Source: Bacteriovorax sp. Seq25_V
Lineage (GTDB): Bacteria > Bdellovibrionota > Bacteriovoracia > Bacteriovoracales > Bacteriovoracaceae
NCBI RefSeq assembly: GCF_000447795.1
Contig: NZ_AUNI01000015.1
Span: forward strand, 310,001-374,000
Reading direction: 5' to 3'
Length of the DNA stretch: 64,000 bases
Below the pieces are notes generated by a model that was given only the letters and a program-made list of their open reading frames with translations, was not told where the DNA came from and did no database searches. A program made the position numbers and the translations under genes. Shown in pieces: positions 56,044-64,000 of the stretch. Positions within the stretch are counted from its first letter, which is position 1. Every line of letters starts with the position of its first letter.

Positions 56044-57024
56044 ATGGAAGACAAAATAATCAATCAGTTAAATCACGATCTAAATAAACTTAATTCGACA
56101 AAACAGGGACGTCGTGCGTTTCTAACGGCCTTGCCTTTACTTCTTGCGAGTTGTGCCACTACAGATAAGACAAGATATCGAGAAGGGGATAACTCAGGAC
56201 AAGAAGTTGGTCTAAGCGTCGAAGAAGAAAGAAAAATGACCAGGGAATATCTTCCAGAGATGGAGAAGGACTATCAAAAATATAGAAACTCTTATGTTCA
56301 GTCTTATATTAATGATGTCGGACGTAAAATTGTTGATAGTAATAAGCTAGCAGGTAATCCATATAATTATAATTTTAGAGTGGTCGCATCAAACCAAATA
56401 AATGCTTTCGCGTTACCAGCAGGGGAAGTTTTTGTAACATCAAAATTAATTGCGATGACAGATAGTGAAGCTGAACTGGCCGGGGTTATTGGTCATGAGG
56501 TAGGGCATATCCAGGCGCGACATACAGCAGAAAGAATATATAAGGCCGAAAAAGAGAAGAACAAGGGACTTATTTATGGGCTCGGTGGGGCTCTCCTTGG
56601 GGGGGCTGCAGGTTTTGGTCTTGGTAAGATGCTTTGCTCCAAACAGGATCGTGACTGCTTGATGAGAGTTGCTAAATATGGGGCAATGGCCGGGGGAATG
56701 GGAGGACTACTGATCCAGAAATATGGATTTATGGCAAATTCCCGTGAAGATGAAATGGAAGCGGATCGTATTGGTTTTAAGACTAGTTTAAAGGCTGGTT
56801 ATGACTATGCTCATGTTGGAAATTTCTATGAAAAATTACTTGTAATGGAAAAGAATTATTCTAAGAAAGATAATGCTTTGGCTAAAAAGTTTGCTGATGC
56901 TATGTCGACTCATCCTCCAAGTGAGCAGAGAGTTGCGCAGATGAGAGAACTTGAAAGGGCCAATCCTTTAAAGGGGAAGGTGACTTCCCCTGAATTTGAA
57001 AAAATAAAAAAAATCTTAGTCTAG
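56044..57024 (+). CDS. M48-family metallopeptidase (BepA/LoiP-like lipoprotein)
   Basis: A 326-residue envelope peptidase. The zinc motif is IGHEVGHIQARHTAERI (H151, E152, H155), with the third ligand in EDEMEADRIG. The N-terminus carries RRAFLTALPLLLASCAT, a twin-arginine-like lipoprotein signal after 23 soluble residues, an unusually long leader. The Gly-rich insert (LGGALLGGAAGFGLGKML) after the zinc helix is common in M48 quality-control proteases. STHPPSEQRVAQM ends the domain. Likely role is outer-membrane protein quality control. The 3' end overlaps the opposing receiver gene by 9 nt. Confidence 0.92.
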   Translation: MEDKIINQLNHDLNKLNSTKQGRRAFLTALPLLLASCATTDKTRYREGDNSGQEVGLSVEEERKMTREYLPEMEKDYQKYRNSYVQSYINDVGRKIVDSNKLAGNPYNYNFRVVASNQINAFALPAGEVFVTSKLIAMTDSEAELAGVIGHEVGHIQARHTAERIYKAEKEKNKGLIYGLGGALLGGAAGFGLGKMLCSKQDRDCLMRVAKYGAMAGGMGGLLIQKYGFMANSREDEMEADRIGFKTSLKAGYDYAHVGNFYEKLLVMEKNYSKKDNALAKKFADAMSTHPPSEQRVAQMRELERANPLKGKVTSPEFEKIKKILV

Positions 57025-57426
57025 TTTGAGTATTTGAAGCACTTTCGAAATAAGATCGTCTCTTGAAAATGGTTTTACGAGAACGTGCTTAATTCCTGAA
57101 TTAATAACATTGATCATTGATCTATTGTCGAGATACCCAGATATTAAAAGAAATTTCAGTTTTCTAAACTTCAAACTTTTTTTGGCCATCTCAACAAGAT
57201 ATGTACCTTCTTTATCTGGAAGTTGGAAATCTACTATAACTAAGTCAAATTCATCATTTCTAAGCTTTAACATTCCAATTGAAGCATTCTCTGCGACCAC
57301 GACATTCCTAAAAAGCTTTGTTTGCTCGAGAAAAGTCTTGATGAGCATACAAATTTTTACCTCATCGTCGATTATAAGTACTGCTGGTTTTTCTGAATCT
57401 TTAATCTTTGGGAGAGTGATACTCAT
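57016..57426 (-). CDS. Stand-alone response regulator receiver
   Basis: A 136-residue single receiver domain. The acidic pair is D20/D21 in LIIDDEVK, the phospho-acceptor is Asp66 in LVIVDFQLPDKEG, the signalling Ser is in LLISGYL and the Lys in HVLVKPFSRDD. There is no output domain. It is the last gene of the signalling operon and shares 1 nt with the hybrid kinase gene, so it is the likely phosphotransfer target of that kinase or a phosphate sink. Confidence 0.93.
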   Translation of the reverse strand: MSITLPKIKDSEKPAVLIIDDEVKICMLIKTFLEQTKLFRNVVVAENASIGMLKLRNDEFDLVIVDFQLPDKEGTYLVEMAKKSLKFRKLKFLLISGYLDNRSMINVINSGIKHVLVKPFSRDDLISKVLQILKLD

Positions 57427-58943
57427 TACTTTTCACCCTCTTTCCATTTATTCATCATATTTACAATATCATCTTTGATAAAAGGCTTTTGTAAGTGATC
57501 ATTGAACAGTCCACTTGCAATGTCGGATTTTATCTTTTCATCAGCAACTTTACCTGTAAGGTAGATGATTGGTCCGCTGTAAGAAAGTTCTCTAATTTTT
57601 TTTGCCAACTCATCCCCATTCATTTCAGGCATCGAAAAATCAATGAAGATCATATTGAAGCGACCATCATCAATAAGTGCTAATGCTTCTTTAGGATTTG
57701 ATGCACAGATAACATTCACATTTGAGTCACTAATACTTTCGTTGAAGAGATTGAGAATTTTAACTTCGTCATCGATAACAAGAATATTAAGATTTAACTC
57801 TTGAGCATTGTCTCTATTAAGAGTCGAAGAAGCGATACTTAAAGTCGACATTTTTGGAATTGTTATTTTAAAGATAGTAGGGGAGCTCGCTGAAACAAGC
57901 TCTAGTGTCCCTTGATATGATTCAATGATTTTAGTAGCAATCGCAAGCCCAAGTCCCGTTCCTTCTCCAACTTCTTTTGTGGTAAAAAAAGATTCAAAAA
58001 TTTTGTCTTGGATCTCAGTAGGGATGCCAGCTCCTGTGTCACATAGTTGTACCTCATAGCACATTTCTGTTTCATCGAGAGTTATTCCGATTGATCTGGA
58101 TTCATTATTTGGAATTGAATTTATAGAGTCGATAGAATTTTTGATGAGATTTATAAAGAGTTGTTCCATCTTTAGTGAGTTTACAAAAACAATAGACTCC
58201 TTGGATTCGGTGTTGTTTTTCACTTCCATAGAGACTTGAGATTTCTTTAACTGACTATTTACAAGTCTTGTTGAGTTCTCAATGATTTCTTCAACAGATA
58301 CATACTCCTTCTTGTCCTCATTACCATGGAGGAACTTCTTCATACCTTTGATGATACTATTAATACGCATGAAAGATTCGATGACGTCATTTAAACATGA
58401 ATCTAATAACTCTTTTTGAGAATTTATATCTTCTGATTCAAATAGAGCCTTGATTAACTCCAGGGTTCCTGAAGCAATCGTCAGTGGATTTGATATTTCA
58501 TGAGATATACTTGCCGTGATTTCACCAATTGTTGTAAGCTTGTCAGCTTGAACAATCTGATGATGAATTTCTTTAAGTTCTTCAATTTGATAACGATATT
58601 TTTGATAAAGATTTTTTTCGATTGTTATATCATTCAAGCTCACTAGAACAAGATCTTTATCTAAAAGATACGTTCCTTTGGCAATAACGTGAAGCTCCTG
58701 GTCTTGTAGGCTATCGATAAGCTCTTCTTTGGAGATCGTGTTTGATTTTGTCTCAAAAGTTTGATCAATTAGGGTAGAGATAAAGTTCTCAGCAATAATC
58801 TCTTTCAAAAACTTCTTATTCTTGATTACTCGCGGTGAGCTTTTTGTAAAAGTTGAAAACATATGATTGTAGTAGATGATTTCATTGTCTTTGTTAACAA
58901 TGACAATGGGCTCAAAAAGAGAATCTAGAATTTCAAAGTTCAT
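57426..58943 (-). CDS. Hybrid histidine kinase (PAS-HisKA-HATPase-REC)
   Basis: A 505-residue soluble hybrid kinase. A PAS domain opens it (LDSLFEPIVIVNKDNEIIYYNHMFS). The HisKA motif is GEITASISHEISNPLTI (His148), followed by N box FINLIKNSIDSI, G1 DTGAGIP and G2 GEGTGLGLAIATKI. A C-terminal receiver (about 380-500) has ILVIDDEVK, Asp near 434 in MIFIDFSMPEMNG and LQKPFIKDD. No membrane helix is seen, so the signal is cytoplasmic, possibly from the STAS/HATPase partners encoded upstream. The gap to the STAS gene is 2 nt. Confidence 0.93.
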   Translation of the reverse strand: MNFEILDSLFEPIVIVNKDNEIIYYNHMFSTFTKSSPRVIKNKKFLKEIIAENFISTLIDQTFETKSNTISKEELIDSLQDQELHVIAKGTYLLDKDLVLVSLNDITIEKNLYQKYRYQIEELKEIHHQIVQADKLTTIGEITASISHEISNPLTIASGTLELIKALFESEDINSQKELLDSCLNDVIESFMRINSIIKGMKKFLHGNEDKKEYVSVEEIIENSTRLVNSQLKKSQVSMEVKNNTESKESIVFVNSLKMEQLFINLIKNSIDSINSIPNNESRSIGITLDETEMCYEVQLCDTGAGIPTEIQDKIFESFFTTKEVGEGTGLGLAIATKIIESYQGTLELVSASSPTIFKITIPKMSTLSIASSTLNRDNAQELNLNILVIDDEVKILNLFNESISDSNVNVICASNPKEALALIDDGRFNMIFIDFSMPEMNGDELAKKIRELSYSGPIIYLTGKVADEKIKSDIASGLFNDHLQKPFIKDDIVNMMNKWKEGEK

Positions 58944-58945
58944 TT

Positions 58946-59413
58946 TTAACCTTTTTGCTTTAAAAATTGGAAATACTGCGCTTCAATCGCATCGAATTCA
59001 AGTTCTTCTCCATCTTGTTCGATTTTTGGCGCCTTCCCATCAACTACTTGCGAAGAGAGTAGTAACACTTTGAGTACATCATCAGCTTTCTCACTATAAT
59101 AAGGAGCGTAGAAGGACTCAATTGATGTGTTCGGCAAAATAAATCCGTGAACCATATTTATCTGTTCGATTACAACTTGCGGGCAGTTTTTGTAAGTTAT
59201 GCTACAATCCTTAACTCCTTCAAGAAAGTTGATCCATTCTCTTACTCCACAAGAGTTAATTAGTGTTACCTTGTTAAAATCGATAATTATCGTACTCTTT
59301 TTTGAAGATAATATTTCTTCAAATGTAGAATCCTCATCGATTTGTCCTTGCAGAAGAAATTCTGCTAAGTCTGCTTCATTCTTCGTAATATTGATGACTA
59401 ATTTGTCACTCAT
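58946..59413 (-). CDS. STAS-domain (anti-sigma antagonist-like) protein
   Basis: A 155-residue protein. Residues 1-105 have the STAS fold (LVINITKNEADLAEFLLQGQIDEDSTFEEIL, STIIIDFNKVTLINSCGVREWINFL). Ser54 in LINSCGV is at the position phosphorylated in SpoIIAA/RsbV. A C-terminal extension of about 50 acidic residues (KIEQDGEELEFDAIEAQYFQ) is not part of the usual fold. With a HATPase upstream (1-nt overlap) and a SpoIIE phosphatase above that, it is the expected switch partner. Confidence 0.86.
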   Translation of the reverse strand: MSDKLVINITKNEADLAEFLLQGQIDEDSTFEEILSSKKSTIIIDFNKVTLINSCGVREWINFLEGVKDCSITYKNCPQVVIEQINMVHGFILPNTSIESFYAPYYSEKADDVLKVLLLSSQVVDGKAPKIEQDGEELEFDAIEAQYFQFLKQKG

Positions 59414-60255
59414 TACTCCTCCTCAAAATAGTGGAACGAAGTTATTCTTTCCTTAAAATTTTTATAACGTTTACTGATATCTATAATTCCTACAAATTCA
59501 CAAAAACGATTTTTCTTATTGTTAATGTGTAGTTGATTAATGTTCTCATATACCATCATGAGCCCAAGACCTGCTCCAGGTCCTTCTGTCCGTGGTCTTC
59601 TTTCAATAAATCCTCGTTTGATACTACTGAGTACGCGATCTCTGTCAATCTTACCGATATTATCTTTTACAAGTATTACTATATTAACAGAGTCCATACC
59701 TATCAAAACATTTATTGCCTCATCAGAGGATACAAAAACTGAGTTTTTTCTATTTTGATCAATGAGATGTTCCTGATGAAAAAATGCATTCATGATTAGT
59801 TCGTTAAGAACCACTCTCAAGTTATCTCGAGGGGAGCTAAATACTTCATCATAGTTAAATTTTGAAAGAAGACTTTCTATTTGCTCTGGAGCATCTTTTG
59901 AATGAAGTATTTGCAATGAGTGAATAATTGCATCTTCATTAAGGTATTTTTCAATTCCAAATAAATTATTTGTTTGAATTTTTCGTAATACTCTTTCTAG
60001 TTCTTTCTCAAGACAAGATGAGTTTCCAATGAGATGGTTTATTGGATTTGTGTTTAGAAAGATCACATTCTCTAAGTCAGTACGATTCGTAATAACGATT
60101 GTATCAAGGGCATTGGTTTCATTTTGAAATGAAGCGCTGTCTTGAATTGACACAGTTTCACTGTCGATAGTGTTACTAAGTTCGAAGTTTCTTTGAAGAA
60201 ATGCCTCCAGTGTAGGGTAGGCGTCTCGAACTTGATTTGTTAGATGTACTTTCAT
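59413..60255 (-). CDS. HATPase-domain protein, probable partner-switching kinase
   Basis: A 280-residue protein. Residues about 140-240 form a GHKL ATPase of the RsbW/SpoIIAB class: N box RVVLNELIMNAFFH (E152, N156), G1 VKDNIGKID (D198), and the lid GPGAGLGLMMVYENI. The first 130 residues are a separate mixed domain that resembles a degenerate receiver (TIVITNRTDLENVIFLN), without phospho-acceptor certainty. It overlaps the SpoIIE gene by 4 nt. It should phosphorylate the adjacent STAS protein at Ser54. Confidence 0.83.
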   Translation of the reverse strand: MKVHLTNQVRDAYPTLEAFLQRNFELSNTIDSETVSIQDSASFQNETNALDTIVITNRTDLENVIFLNTNPINHLIGNSSCLEKELERVLRKIQTNNLFGIEKYLNEDAIIHSLQILHSKDAPEQIESLLSKFNYDEVFSSPRDNLRVVLNELIMNAFFHQEHLIDQNRKNSVFVSSDEAINVLIGMDSVNIVILVKDNIGKIDRDRVLSSIKRGFIERRPRTEGPGAGLGLMMVYENINQLHINNKKNRFCEFVGIIDISKRYKNFKERITSFHYFEEE

Positions 60256-61955
60256 TTCTTTACCTTAATACAGACAAGGGTTAGATCATCTTCAAATATT
60301 TCTTTGCTACAAAATAATAAGAACTCTTCGATAATTTTATTTCTAAGTGCTCGAGTATCTTTTGTACTAATTTCGATTATTGTTTTTAGAAACCTTCTTA
60401 TTCCCCACGGCTTATCGTCTTTGTCGACGCATTCAATAATACCATCGGTTTTTAAAATAATTGTATCTCCATCATTGAGCATTATACTATGACCAGAGTA
60501 AACAGAATCACTTTTGTGTCCTAATCTCGCGCCTTTAGCCTCGATTAAAGGAATAATGTCTGATTTTTCTAGTGCCTCATTTTTTTGAGGAATATATAGA
60601 GCATCAAGGTGACTTGCATTTGAATAAGAAAGAGTTAATTTTTCTAGGTCGAAAACGCAAACAAACGCAGTCAAAAGTACATCTGTCTTTGTAAGAGTCA
60701 GTGATTTGTTGAGAAAATTTAAAATGTATTCTGGGGTTAATTCAAATCTTCCTTCGCTAAGTAGAAATTTAATCGTATTGAAAGATGTGTTGATACTTGC
60801 GGTAAGTAATGCAGCAGGTACCCCATGCCCAGTTGCATCGGCGATAATCGTAATAAGCTTATTGTCGATTTTGTAGTAGTTCCACCAATCTCCACCACAC
60901 TCAGAAGCTGGAGTGTTAAATGCCATAATTTCAAAACTATTTTCTTCTATTTCTGTTTGAGGAAAGAAGTTTTCTTGTACAAGTTTTGCAACTTGAACTT
61001 CATTTTCAAGACGAAGCTTCTCCTTCATTTGTTCCATGTATTTTTTAATCTCACTGGTCATATAGTTGAAGGCTTTTGCTAGGTGCCCAATCTCATCTTT
61101 AGAGCTTTCTTCAACAATTGTATCAAAATTCCCCTTTGCTAACTCTTGGGATGCTATAAATAGCTTATCAATTGGATTCGTAATTGATTTAGCAAAGACC
61201 ATTGCTATAGCACTGATGAAGAAAAGAATGAATAGACCAAAGAGAATTGACTTCTGGATAAGAAAATCAGTTACAGAAAATGCTTGGTCGTAGTCGATCA
61301 AATTAAAAATTCTAAAGTCCATTAATTTTGTTTTTGAGACAGAGAAGAGATACTTTTTCTTGCCAAGCTCCAAAATTTTAACGCTATTGATAAGCGTGAC
61401 TTCTCTTAAGTTTTTAATGATGTCTGATTTGTTTGTATCAACAAGGTTTTCGTAGAGAATGTGATTTTCTTTTGAGAAGAGGATAGAGCGATAAACTCTA
61501 TTTTGCTCAAGAGAACTAGTGAGTACAGATTTTCGAACACTGACTATAAGATCTTTAGATTTTAGATGTATGTGGCTATTTGTTTCTGGTCGATCTCCAT
61601 TCCCTGATAGCTCATCTGGCGTTAATGACTGTTCACTTGTAAAAAAGTATTTTGGTGTCCAAATAGCATCAATGACCTTACTTTGCTTAATGAAGTCTTC
61701 AATATTCTTATATTTTTTTATTTCAAGAAGCTTGTTTAAAATTTCAATGTCTCTATTAATATTAGAAAGTGTCGAACTAATTTCGTTAGCAAATCCTGTT
61801 GATGTTGCTAGGGAGTTTTCAAAGATATAGGCCTTCTTATCCTCTGAAAAAAGACTTGAGGCGTAGAACGTATAGAATGCGATTGCGCAGATTAAGGATA
61901 CTGTCATTAACAGAATAATTTTAATCTTGATCGGAAAACTCAGTCTCTTGTCCAT
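60252..61955 (-). CDS. Membrane SpoIIE/RsbU-type PP2C phosphatase with HAMP domain
   Basis: A 567-residue sensor phosphatase. Two membrane helices (about 11-31 and 235-258) bracket a periplasmic sensor of about 200 residues. The HAMP domain follows (SITNPIDKLFIASQELAKGNFDTIVEESSKDEIGHLAKAFN). The PP2C domain starts near residue 325 with the metal motifs CGGDWWNYY (about 355) and IADATGHGVPAALLTA (about 373), then LKTDGIIEC and DDLTLVCI. It would dephosphorylate the STAS protein in response to an envelope signal. It is the first gene of the five-gene operon, with its own promoter at 61995. Confidence 0.93.
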   Translation of the reverse strand: MDKRLSFPIKIKIILLMTVSLICAIAFYTFYASSLFSEDKKAYIFENSLATSTGFANEISSTLSNINRDIEILNKLLEIKKYKNIEDFIKQSKVIDAIWTPKYFFTSEQSLTPDELSGNGDRPETNSHIHLKSKDLIVSVRKSVLTSSLEQNRVYRSILFSKENHILYENLVDTNKSDIIKNLREVTLINSVKILELGKKKYLFSVSKTKLMDFRIFNLIDYDQAFSVTDFLIQKSILFGLFILFFISAIAMVFAKSITNPIDKLFIASQELAKGNFDTIVEESSKDEIGHLAKAFNYMTSEIKKYMEQMKEKLRLENEVQVAKLVQENFFPQTEIEENSFEIMAFNTPASECGGDWWNYYKIDNKLITIIADATGHGVPAALLTASINTSFNTIKFLLSEGRFELTPEYILNFLNKSLTLTKTDVLLTAFVCVFDLEKLTLSYSNASHLDALYIPQKNEALEKSDIIPLIEAKGARLGHKSDSVYSGHSIMLNDGDTIILKTDGIIECVDKDDKPWGIRRFLKTIIEISTKDTRALRNKIIEEFLLFCSKEIFEDDLTLVCIKVKK

Positions 61956-61994
61956 ATTTGCCCTAAATAGCAGTGTTTCTAATTATTTATTAAA

Positions 61995-62023
61995 ATAATA
62001 GGTAATATTAGCGGATTTCTCAA
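61995..62023 (-). promoter_or_regulatory. Sigma-70-type promoter for the SpoIIE signalling operon
   Basis: On the minus strand TTGAGA (62018-62023, 5/6) and TATTAT (61995-62000, 5/6) are separated by exactly 17 nt. The predicted start near 61988 gives a leader of about 33 nt containing TAGGG before the ATG at 61955. Confidence 0.65.
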
Positions 62024-62046
62024 GACAAGGTAAATTAGGAACAATT

Positions 62047-64000
62047 TTGGTTAAAAGGCAATTTGATACATACATTATTATTTTTCTCTTCTTTGTGTCA
62101 TTTGCAATCCTCTACAAATTGTTGACTCTTCAGTATCTCTATCCTTTTAGTGGTGGTGAACGTATCAGTGCAGGGCAATTAACTTCACTTGTTAATGATG
62201 TAAGAAGGAAGAGTTTTGATCAGGTCTCCTGGGTGGATGCAAGTGATGAAGAGACTATCTATAATAATGATAAAATATTCACTGATAATAACTCAAAAGC
62301 TCAGATCAAATTTGAGAGTGGTAATCTCATTACAATTAATGAAGAGAGTCTTTTTAAAGTAAGTATAATTAATAATACAATCAATCTTGATATGGAGAGG
62401 GGATCGTTTATCGCTGATTTAACTTCTGATGCGGAGGTCCTGTTATTCATTCTAGGCGGTAAGGAATATAAAGTTAAATCAAAGAAAGGAAAAATTAAAA
62501 TTACAGGAAATCAAATTTCCCTTCTTTCTGGAGAGGCTTCTCTTGTGTCGGGAAGTTCTAAACTTGAGTTGAAACAAGGGGAAATTGCTAAACTTGATGA
62601 GCATATTGAGTTCGTTGAGAAGTTTCCTGCAAAATTAAATATTATCGATGCTAAAACATATTATATCCAAAAAGATAAGGGATTAACTCTAAACTGGGAA
62701 AGTTTAAAAAAGTTAAAACTAGAGTCTTCTTTTGATATTTCTTTTGAAAAAAGAAGTGTCTATTCGCCTTTAGATAATACATTTGTTTTACATCTTCAGG
62801 AAGGAATGAATTATATTCGTTTTATCGATCCTATAAAGAATCAAATCTCAAATATTACAAGTATGAATATTATTTACGAGACAGTTCCTGAAATTACACT
62901 TGATCGTAATAAGGTTTTCTCCGGAGAAGAAGTAAGTTTTAAGGATAACTTCGAAGGAAAATGGTCTTACGAGATTCGTCTTGGAGACAAGACATTAAAG
63001 ACCAGCTCACTCAAGCACTCTTTCCAAATTAATGAAGTCGGAAGCCAGTCTGTCCTATTTAAGGTAGATGATCCTGACCGATTAGATGCTCTATGGTCGA
63101 AACCTCTTCAGGTTGAGGTGTTGTCATTGCCAAAGAGAGGGCCTCGTATACTTTCGCCAACAGAGGGACAAGAGTTCTATCTTTATGGAGATCATGGAAT
63201 TGTTAATGTTGAGGTTGATAATACTACCGATGCGACAACAGGAGTTTTATTCCAAGGAAATAAGTTACTTCTATCAGATGAGAATAAAACAGAGTTAACG
63301 ATAAATAAATCAGGAACTCAAGAGATTGAATCATTCTTTGAAATCAGTGATCAGGTAATTGGCGGATCTAAGCGTAAATTTCATGTCTACCTCGAGCCGT
63401 CTGGTCTTGATTTAGAGCAGGGGGCTAAATTTATTTTAAAGAAGCCTGGACAGGAAGTTGACTTTGATTGGGCCGGAGTAGCTAGCGCAAATTATCTTTT
63501 AGAAATCTCTAACGATAGAAATTTTCAAAAGATTGCGAAGACTAAAAATGTTAAGGGGCTTACAGCAAAAATGAGTTTCTCTAAAACAGGTGAAATGTTT
63601 TGGAGAGCTAAAAAAATTAATAAAGATGGAACTGTCGAGTATGGTTCACCGAAGAAGATTATTTTAAGTAAGCCACTCGCTCCATCCGCACCTAAAATTA
63701 GAAAAGTAATTAAGAAGAGAGTGACAACTAATATCTTAAATTCGATTCTCGATTTTATTTTTCCTGCTGCATACGCTGCTGAGGATGTGCTTGAATGGAC
63801 ACCGGTAAATGATGTCGAAAGTTATCGGGTTGAAATTTATCGAGGTGAAAAACTTCTTATTAATGAGATTGTTAATGACAATGCAATTTCAATACAAAGT
63901 CTTACGCCTGGTAGTTATAAGTATCGTATCGCTAGTATTGATTATTGGGAGCAGCAAGGTGAGTTCTCAGAATTTGCAACTTTAATAATAGAGAAGGTTG
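62047..64000 (+). CDS. FecR-domain protein with Ig/FN3-like repeats (3' end outside window)
   Basis: An open frame runs from TTG at 62047 (preceded by AGGAAC; upstream stop at 61999) to the window edge, 651 codons with no stop. A signal-anchor helix (TYIIIFLFFVSFAILYKLL) is followed by a FecR domain at residues about 70-190: DKIFTDNNSKAQIKFESGNLITINEESLFKV, then MERGSFIADLTSDAEV and KSKKGKIKITGNQISLLSGEASLVSGSSKLELKQGE. At least two beta-sandwich or FN3-like units come next, ending EWTPVNDVESYRVEIY...LTPGSYKYRIASIDYW. It is divergent from the SpoIIE operon and may sense the envelope for it. Its TTG start makes it easy to miss. Confidence 0.85.
   Translation, partial: MVKRQFDTYIIIFLFFVSFAILYKLLTLQYLYPFSGGERISAGQLTSLVNDVRRKSFDQVSWVDASDEETIYNNDKIFTDNNSKAQIKFESGNLITINEESLFKVSIINNTINLDMERGSFIADLTSDAEVLLFILGGKEYKVKSKKGKIKITGNQISLLSGEASLVSGSSKLELKQGEIAKLDEHIEFVEKFPAKLNIIDAKTYYIQKDKGLTLNWESLKKLKLESSFDISFEKRSVYSPLDNTFVLHLQEGMNYIRFIDPIKNQISNITSMNIIYETVPEITLDRNKVFSGEEVSFKDNFEGKWSYEIRLGDKTLKTSSLKHSFQINEVGSQSVLFKVDDPDRLDALWSKPLQVEVLSLPKRGPRILSPTEGQEFYLYGDHGIVNVEVDNTTDATTGVLFQGNKLLLSDENKTELTINKSGTQEIESFFEISDQVIGGSKRKFHVYLEPSGLDLEQGAKFILKKPGQEVDFDWAGVASANYLLEISNDRNFQKIAKTKNVKGLTAKMSFSKTGEMFWRAKKINKDGTVEYGSPKKIILSKPLAPSAPKIRKVIKKRVTTNILNSILDFIFPAAYAAEDVLEWTPVNDVESYRVEIYRGEKLLINEIVNDNAISIQSLTPGSYKYRIASIDYWEQQGEFSEFATLIIEKV

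Follow-up and report, generated by a model that had tools for sequence, protein, structure and literature searches.

A Bacteriovoracaceae partner-switch locus with a probable histidine-kinase output and an unusual envelope partner

Several described systems resemble the locus analysed here. In the SiaABCD system of Pseudomonas aeruginosa, a HAMP-PP2C membrane phosphatase and a kinase work with a STAS-like switch protein whose output enzyme is encoded next to it, and there is no sigma factor. That switch protein, SiaC, has Thr68 as its phosphorylation site and activates SiaD, a diguanylate cyclase encoded beside it (PMC7647112). In the HptB-HsbR-HsbA system of P. aeruginosa, HptB receives input from hybrid kinases and passes phosphate to a receiver-PP2C-kinase protein, and a phosphorelay is thus joined to a PP2C/kinase/STAS switch (PMC6482189). 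SypA of the SypE-SypA system of Vibrio fischeri is a STAS protein phosphorylated on Ser56, possibly with a non-sigma target (PMC8256260). The SpoIIE-SpoIIAB-SpoIIAA and RsbU-RsbW-RsbV switches of Bacillus subtilis share with the present locus the enzyme classes and the position of the STAS acceptor serine, and FecI/FecR signalling shares with it a PF04773 domain on a membrane-anchored periplasmic protein.

The route from surface contact to a cell decision is poorly understood in Bdellovibrio-like bacteria, and the module described here offers testable genes, a serine residue, and a candidate cleavage site. It recurs in the Bdellovibrio-like phylum, where a histidine kinase, and not a sigma factor, appears to be the end point of its serine-phosphate switch, and a conserved envelope protein is linked to it along with predicted adhesins. 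Literature searches, which covered few subscription journals, found no paper describing it. In the favoured reading, to which a rough probability of 0.55 was assigned, the partner-switch module would couple a signal from the envelope to a His-Asp relay.

Layout and conservation of the locus

The window, which is the whole 64,000-nt stretch of DNA analysed (G000:C15:310001-374000), came from a genome within the Bacteriovoracaceae, a family with predatory bacteria among its members. Bacteriovorax sp. DB6_IX was the closest of the relatives compared. Five ORFs on the minus strand (window 57016-61955) encoded, in order, a PP2C/SpoIIE serine phosphatase (567 aa; 60252-61955), a GHKL-type, RsbW/SpoIIAB-like serine kinase (280 aa; 59413-60255), a STAS phospho-acceptor (155 aa; 58946-59413), a hybrid histidine kinase (505 aa; 57426-58943), and a stand-alone receiver (136 aa; 57016-57426). 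The preliminary description had these genes overlapping or abutting within 2 nt, and the ORF list agreed, with successive junctions of -4, -1, +2, and -1 nt (negative values are overlaps, and the +2 is a gap). On the plus strand, a FecR-domain envelope protein of 926 aa started at a TTG codon (62047), occupied 62047-64000, and ran past the window end to the window-equivalent position 64827. It was separated from the phosphatase gene by a divergent intergenic region of 91 nt (61956-62046). The matches of a promoter scan in this region were not above those in shuffled sequence, and the result of a terminator scan was also not above shuffles.

The core loci, those with STAS followed by a close hybrid-kinase homologue, numbered 41 after removal of known duplicate fetches, and some of these loci were from closely related genomes. 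The phosphatase gene was upstream in 39, and the receiver gene came after the hybrid kinase in 38. The FecR gene was divergent from the phosphatase gene in 37/37 readable core loci, the other four being at a contig end or broken at the FecR position. The check proposed earlier, conservation of the operon and FecR order in relatives, was therefore passed, with the six-gene layout kept in the Bacteriovoracaceae, and the conserved order gave comparative support to the proposed coupling of partner switching to a His-Asp relay. Only one SpoIIE gene above cut-off and only 10 FecR-domain genes were present in the host genome. Because the order was strongly conserved and genes of these two classes were few, the arrangement was not attributed to chance.

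Among the phylum's 291 sampled genomes, 209 had a member of the STAS family. The STAS gene was absent from the congeneric genome G001, which is 99% complete, and the module is therefore accessory. In an empty-site comparison, the flanking M48 gene had no homologue in G001. An apparent absence of STAS in loci L007-L011 and L015 was set aside as an ORF-calling artefact.

Serine-phosphate switch and the acceptor serine

The phosphatase matched SpoIIE (E=1e-31) and HAMP (7e-12) in Pfam. Two N-terminal transmembrane segments, read from the sequence, occurred together with an extracytoplasmic domain and the HAMP and SpoIIE domains; no receiver domain was matched in Pfam. The metal site of this SpoIIE-type PP2C was formed by Asp356, Asp373, Asp504, and the Asp557 region, and the metal-binding residues were kept across the aligned relatives. 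Its best NCBIfam match was SiaA (E 1.7e-24), at a score of 86, below the cut-off of 700.

The GHKL kinase matched HATPase_c at 1.8e-4, below the curated cut-off, and possessed both an N-box, with Glu152 and Asn156 (codons 59802-59800 and 59790-59788), and a G2 box (GAGLGL). The N-box Glu and Asn were kept in the aligned relatives having the HATPase domain. HMM searches found the phosphatase and HATPase fused in 17 loci, pairwise search added three further loci (L051, L054, and L059), and HATPase and STAS formed a single protein in L067. The family has separate or PP2C::HATPase-fused enzymes, plus FecR, unlike SypE, which is one dual kinase/phosphatase protein. No HATPase was recognisable beside STAS in core locus L061 or in the sampled f6 loci L135-L138 and L154.

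The STAS domain of the window member was missed by Pfam, and the protein had no NCBIfam match; its relatives had Pfam matches to STAS and zinc ribbons. The STAS profile retrieved TM1442 (E 5e-4), with INSCG aligned to MDSAG, so that Ser54 (codon 59254-59252) corresponded to TM1442 Ser59. The matched position in SpoIIAA we take to be Ser58. In the AlphaFold (AF2) model (pLDDT 95.8), the second helix of the STAS fold (residues 54-66) started at Ser54, and the best Foldseek matches were SpoIIAA complexes, the RsbV fold being matched as well. Ser54 was invariant in 44 aligned homologues and in 77/77 loci of the wider survey. Judged by alignment and model, Ser54 is the correctly placed acceptor position, as had been proposed. 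The adjacent Cys55 was considered as canonical acceptor and was excluded by the TM1442 alignment, in which Ser is followed by Ala, and by the helix start of the model.

Asn53, the residue before the acceptor, replaced Asp in 75/77 loci. This replacement, a zinc-ribbon extension in the family, and the lack of an adjacent sigma factor distinguished the locus from the B. subtilis switches. The extension (CxxC...C) is C-terminal and lay at about 58946-59100 of the window; its cysteine ligands were lost in the clade of the window (YYSEKADD).

The chemistry of the PP2C/GHKL/STAS switch looks intact from motifs, invariance, and predicted fold. On this basis, the HAMP linker would set the activity of the phosphatase, which would oppose the GHKL kinase at Ser54.

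Output of the switch and direction of signal flow

The hybrid kinase contained a weak PAS match, HisKA with His148, HATPase_c, and a receiver with Asp435 (Pfam). The phospho-accepting set of a two-component relay was completed by the lone receiver (Response_reg, 1.6e-18), which had no output domain and whose Asp66 was kept in the aligned homologues. The His of the hybrid kinase was kept in every aligned homologue; L052 had lost the receiver Asp, and the relay step within the protein is therefore not shared by all members. No Hpt domain was encoded in the operon, and 10 matches over cut-off occurred elsewhere in the genome.

In sister modules, the occupant of the slot after STAS varied: it was a GGDEF protein in L060 and L070-L072, a kinase containing Hpt in L053, L064, and others, and elsewhere another hybrid kinase. 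The GGDEF protein directly after STAS in L060 also carried a HATPase domain. This exchangeable slot, together with the fusions in L060 and L067, suggests that the gene after STAS is controlled by the switch. From gene context, the output is therefore probably the product of that gene, the hybrid kinase in the window, and not a sigma factor; the suggestion of the preliminary description that the hybrid kinase or receiver is the output gained comparative support. SiaC and SiaD parallel the sister modules with GGDEF after STAS and provide a precedent for a STAS-like protein acting on the adjacent enzyme. The window module differed from SiaABCD in having a hybrid kinase, a receiver, and a divergent FecR gene; it had neither an above-cut-off SiaA, nor a SiaC-family match in NCBIfam, nor a GGDEF output, and GGDEF outputs occurred in sister modules only. 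As a separate observation, a family of kinases that combine PAS, Hpt, and HATPase domains, and in which HisKA was undetected, was encoded right after STAS throughout the phylum (L053, L064, and L141-L153).

From gene content, motifs, folds, conservation, and synteny, we infer the interactions within the module as follows. A FecR protein anchored in the inner membrane and connected to the outer one, by itself or via its C-terminal half, would report the state of the surface or envelope to the extracytoplasmic domain of the phosphatase. After the opposing reactions at Ser54, the STAS form free of kinase would bind the product of the next gene, here the hybrid kinase, and alter its phosphorylation, as the swapped output genes suggest. 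The hybrid kinase would then phosphorylate the lone receiver, directly or via an Hpt protein encoded in the genome, and the receiver would act on a downstream target, plausibly in the control of attachment.

A reversed flow resembling HptB-HsbR-HsbA, in which the hybrid kinase and receiver stand upstream and control the phosphatase or kinase while STAS acts on a distant target, was considered rather unlikely. The Pseudomonas relay from hybrid kinases through HptB is its model, and the lone receiver could stand in, in trans, for the fused one. However, the relay in Pseudomonas acts upstream via the HsbR receiver, whereas the kinase gene here follows STAS. No receiver-PP2C-kinase fusion was found at the locus, its phosphatase being membrane-bound with HAMP and without a receiver, and the exchange of GGDEF proteins into the slot after STAS fits STAS acting on its neighbour.

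An unlikely alternative is a classical sigma-factor switch, with the HATPase as anti-sigma factor for a distant sigma factor and the hybrid kinase and receiver merely co-transcribed. The PP2C, GHKL kinase, and STAS protein form the standard trio of such switches, and the STAS fold matched SpoIIAA and RsbV. Against this, neither the neighbours read around the module nor those scanned in relatives, many of which were without individual annotation, included a recognisable sigma-factor gene, and the earlier remark that no sigma gene is adjacent held. Furthermore, a kinase or cyclase repeatedly followed STAS, and the HATPase domain was fused to PP2C and to a GGDEF protein. It is very unlikely that shared vertical descent alone keeps together two functionally separate operons, a surface unit of FecR and adhesin genes and the five-gene unit. 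One family supplied most of the sampled loci, but the outer flanks changed among relatives while FecR stayed, and sister modules with different outputs in other families of this phylum likewise had FecR near the phosphatase gene.

FecR-domain protein and adhesin-like neighbours

The FecR domain (PF04773) was matched at residues 75-160 (E=1.5e-5; 25-26 bits against a cut-off of 24). A transmembrane anchor spanned residues 2-34, with few residues before the helix, and reads as an uncleaved inner-membrane anchor. No cytoplasmic anti-sigma domain was matched in Pfam, and none is possible because the helix starts within the first residues; no adjacent FecI was present among the neighbours seen. By its domain content, the protein is not a FecI-type anti-sigma regulator, and it differs from the FecR of FecI/FecR also in its FnIII-like repeats and possible barrel. 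The proposal that it is an envelope signal transducer therefore stood in part: its constant divergent position supports a functional partner, whereas an anti-sigma role of the FecI type is excluded from it, and the protein is more than a FecR domain.

The AF2 model of the FecR protein, built from 19 sequences (pLDDT 78.9), consisted of beta domains in series, and at residues 757-925 it had long strands that looked antiparallel; at a pTM of 0.42, the arrangement of the domains was unreliable. Ig/FnIII-type multi-domain proteins were among the top Foldseek matches of this model, with low TM-scores, and no beta-barrels were among them. The C-terminal residue was F or Y in 26/40 sequences, and a terminal F or Y is a feature of outer-membrane barrels. 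The hydrophobic alternation of strands in the C-terminal region was no higher than in the FnIII-like part. The long predicted strands and the terminal F/Y are at most suggestive of a C-terminal beta-barrel at residues 757-925.

At an AxA junction in residues 553-580 (window about 63703-63786), a hydrophobic stretch ended at Ala577 (codon 63775-63777), one of 11 invariant positions in a 1232-column alignment. Ala was at -1 in 19/19 sequences, and A, S, T, or V was at -3 in 19/19. Such residues after a hydrophobic stretch match the pattern of signal-peptidase I sites. Two genes encoded the protein in L060, L062, and L148, with the boundary at or near this junction, and the second product opened with a signal-peptide-like sequence. 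These split relatives suggest that the fused protein is either cut at the junction or a fusion retaining a remnant of the signal. The protein may thus span the envelope, or may be processed into two proteins.

A more extended scheme is doubtful. The FecR protein would be a polyprotein, and a cut by signal peptidase I at Ala577 would leave a FecR/FnIII half in the inner membrane and a barrel half in the outer membrane, the two forming a trans-envelope tether. Contact with a surface or prey through the neighbouring adhesins would render the phosphatase active and engage the histidine-kinase relay, in a contact-sensing pathway wide among Bdellovibrio-like bacteria and with interchangeable outputs.

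A role of the module in attachment is plausible given the predicted adhesins beside FecR and the precedent of a Bdellovibrio MIDAS adhesin required for proper prey invasion (PMC11003981). After the FecR gene and on the same strand, beyond the window, L003:10945-13290 (+; window-equivalent 64945-67290) encoded a protein that has a lipobox, a DTSGS motif of the MIDAS type, and RCC1 repeats. Its match to the Bdellovibrio MIDAS adhesin model was weak (38.8 of 700 bits). In many relatives, this slot was occupied by a collagen-like protein (PF01391; L005:1280-3115) with a conserved C-terminal domain, which recalls the trimeric fibre proteins of Bdellovibrio. A glycine-rich secreted family, with no Pfam or NCBIfam match, was encoded at L003:13249-14349 (-), L005:3152-4309, L014:2808, and other loci. 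Its C-terminus had a transmembrane segment and basic tail after an SCG/GC-like motif and resembled a sorting signal. The glycine-rich gene overlapped the adjacent convergent gene by about 30-42 nt, which was the 3' end of FecR in most relatives and the RCC1 gene here.
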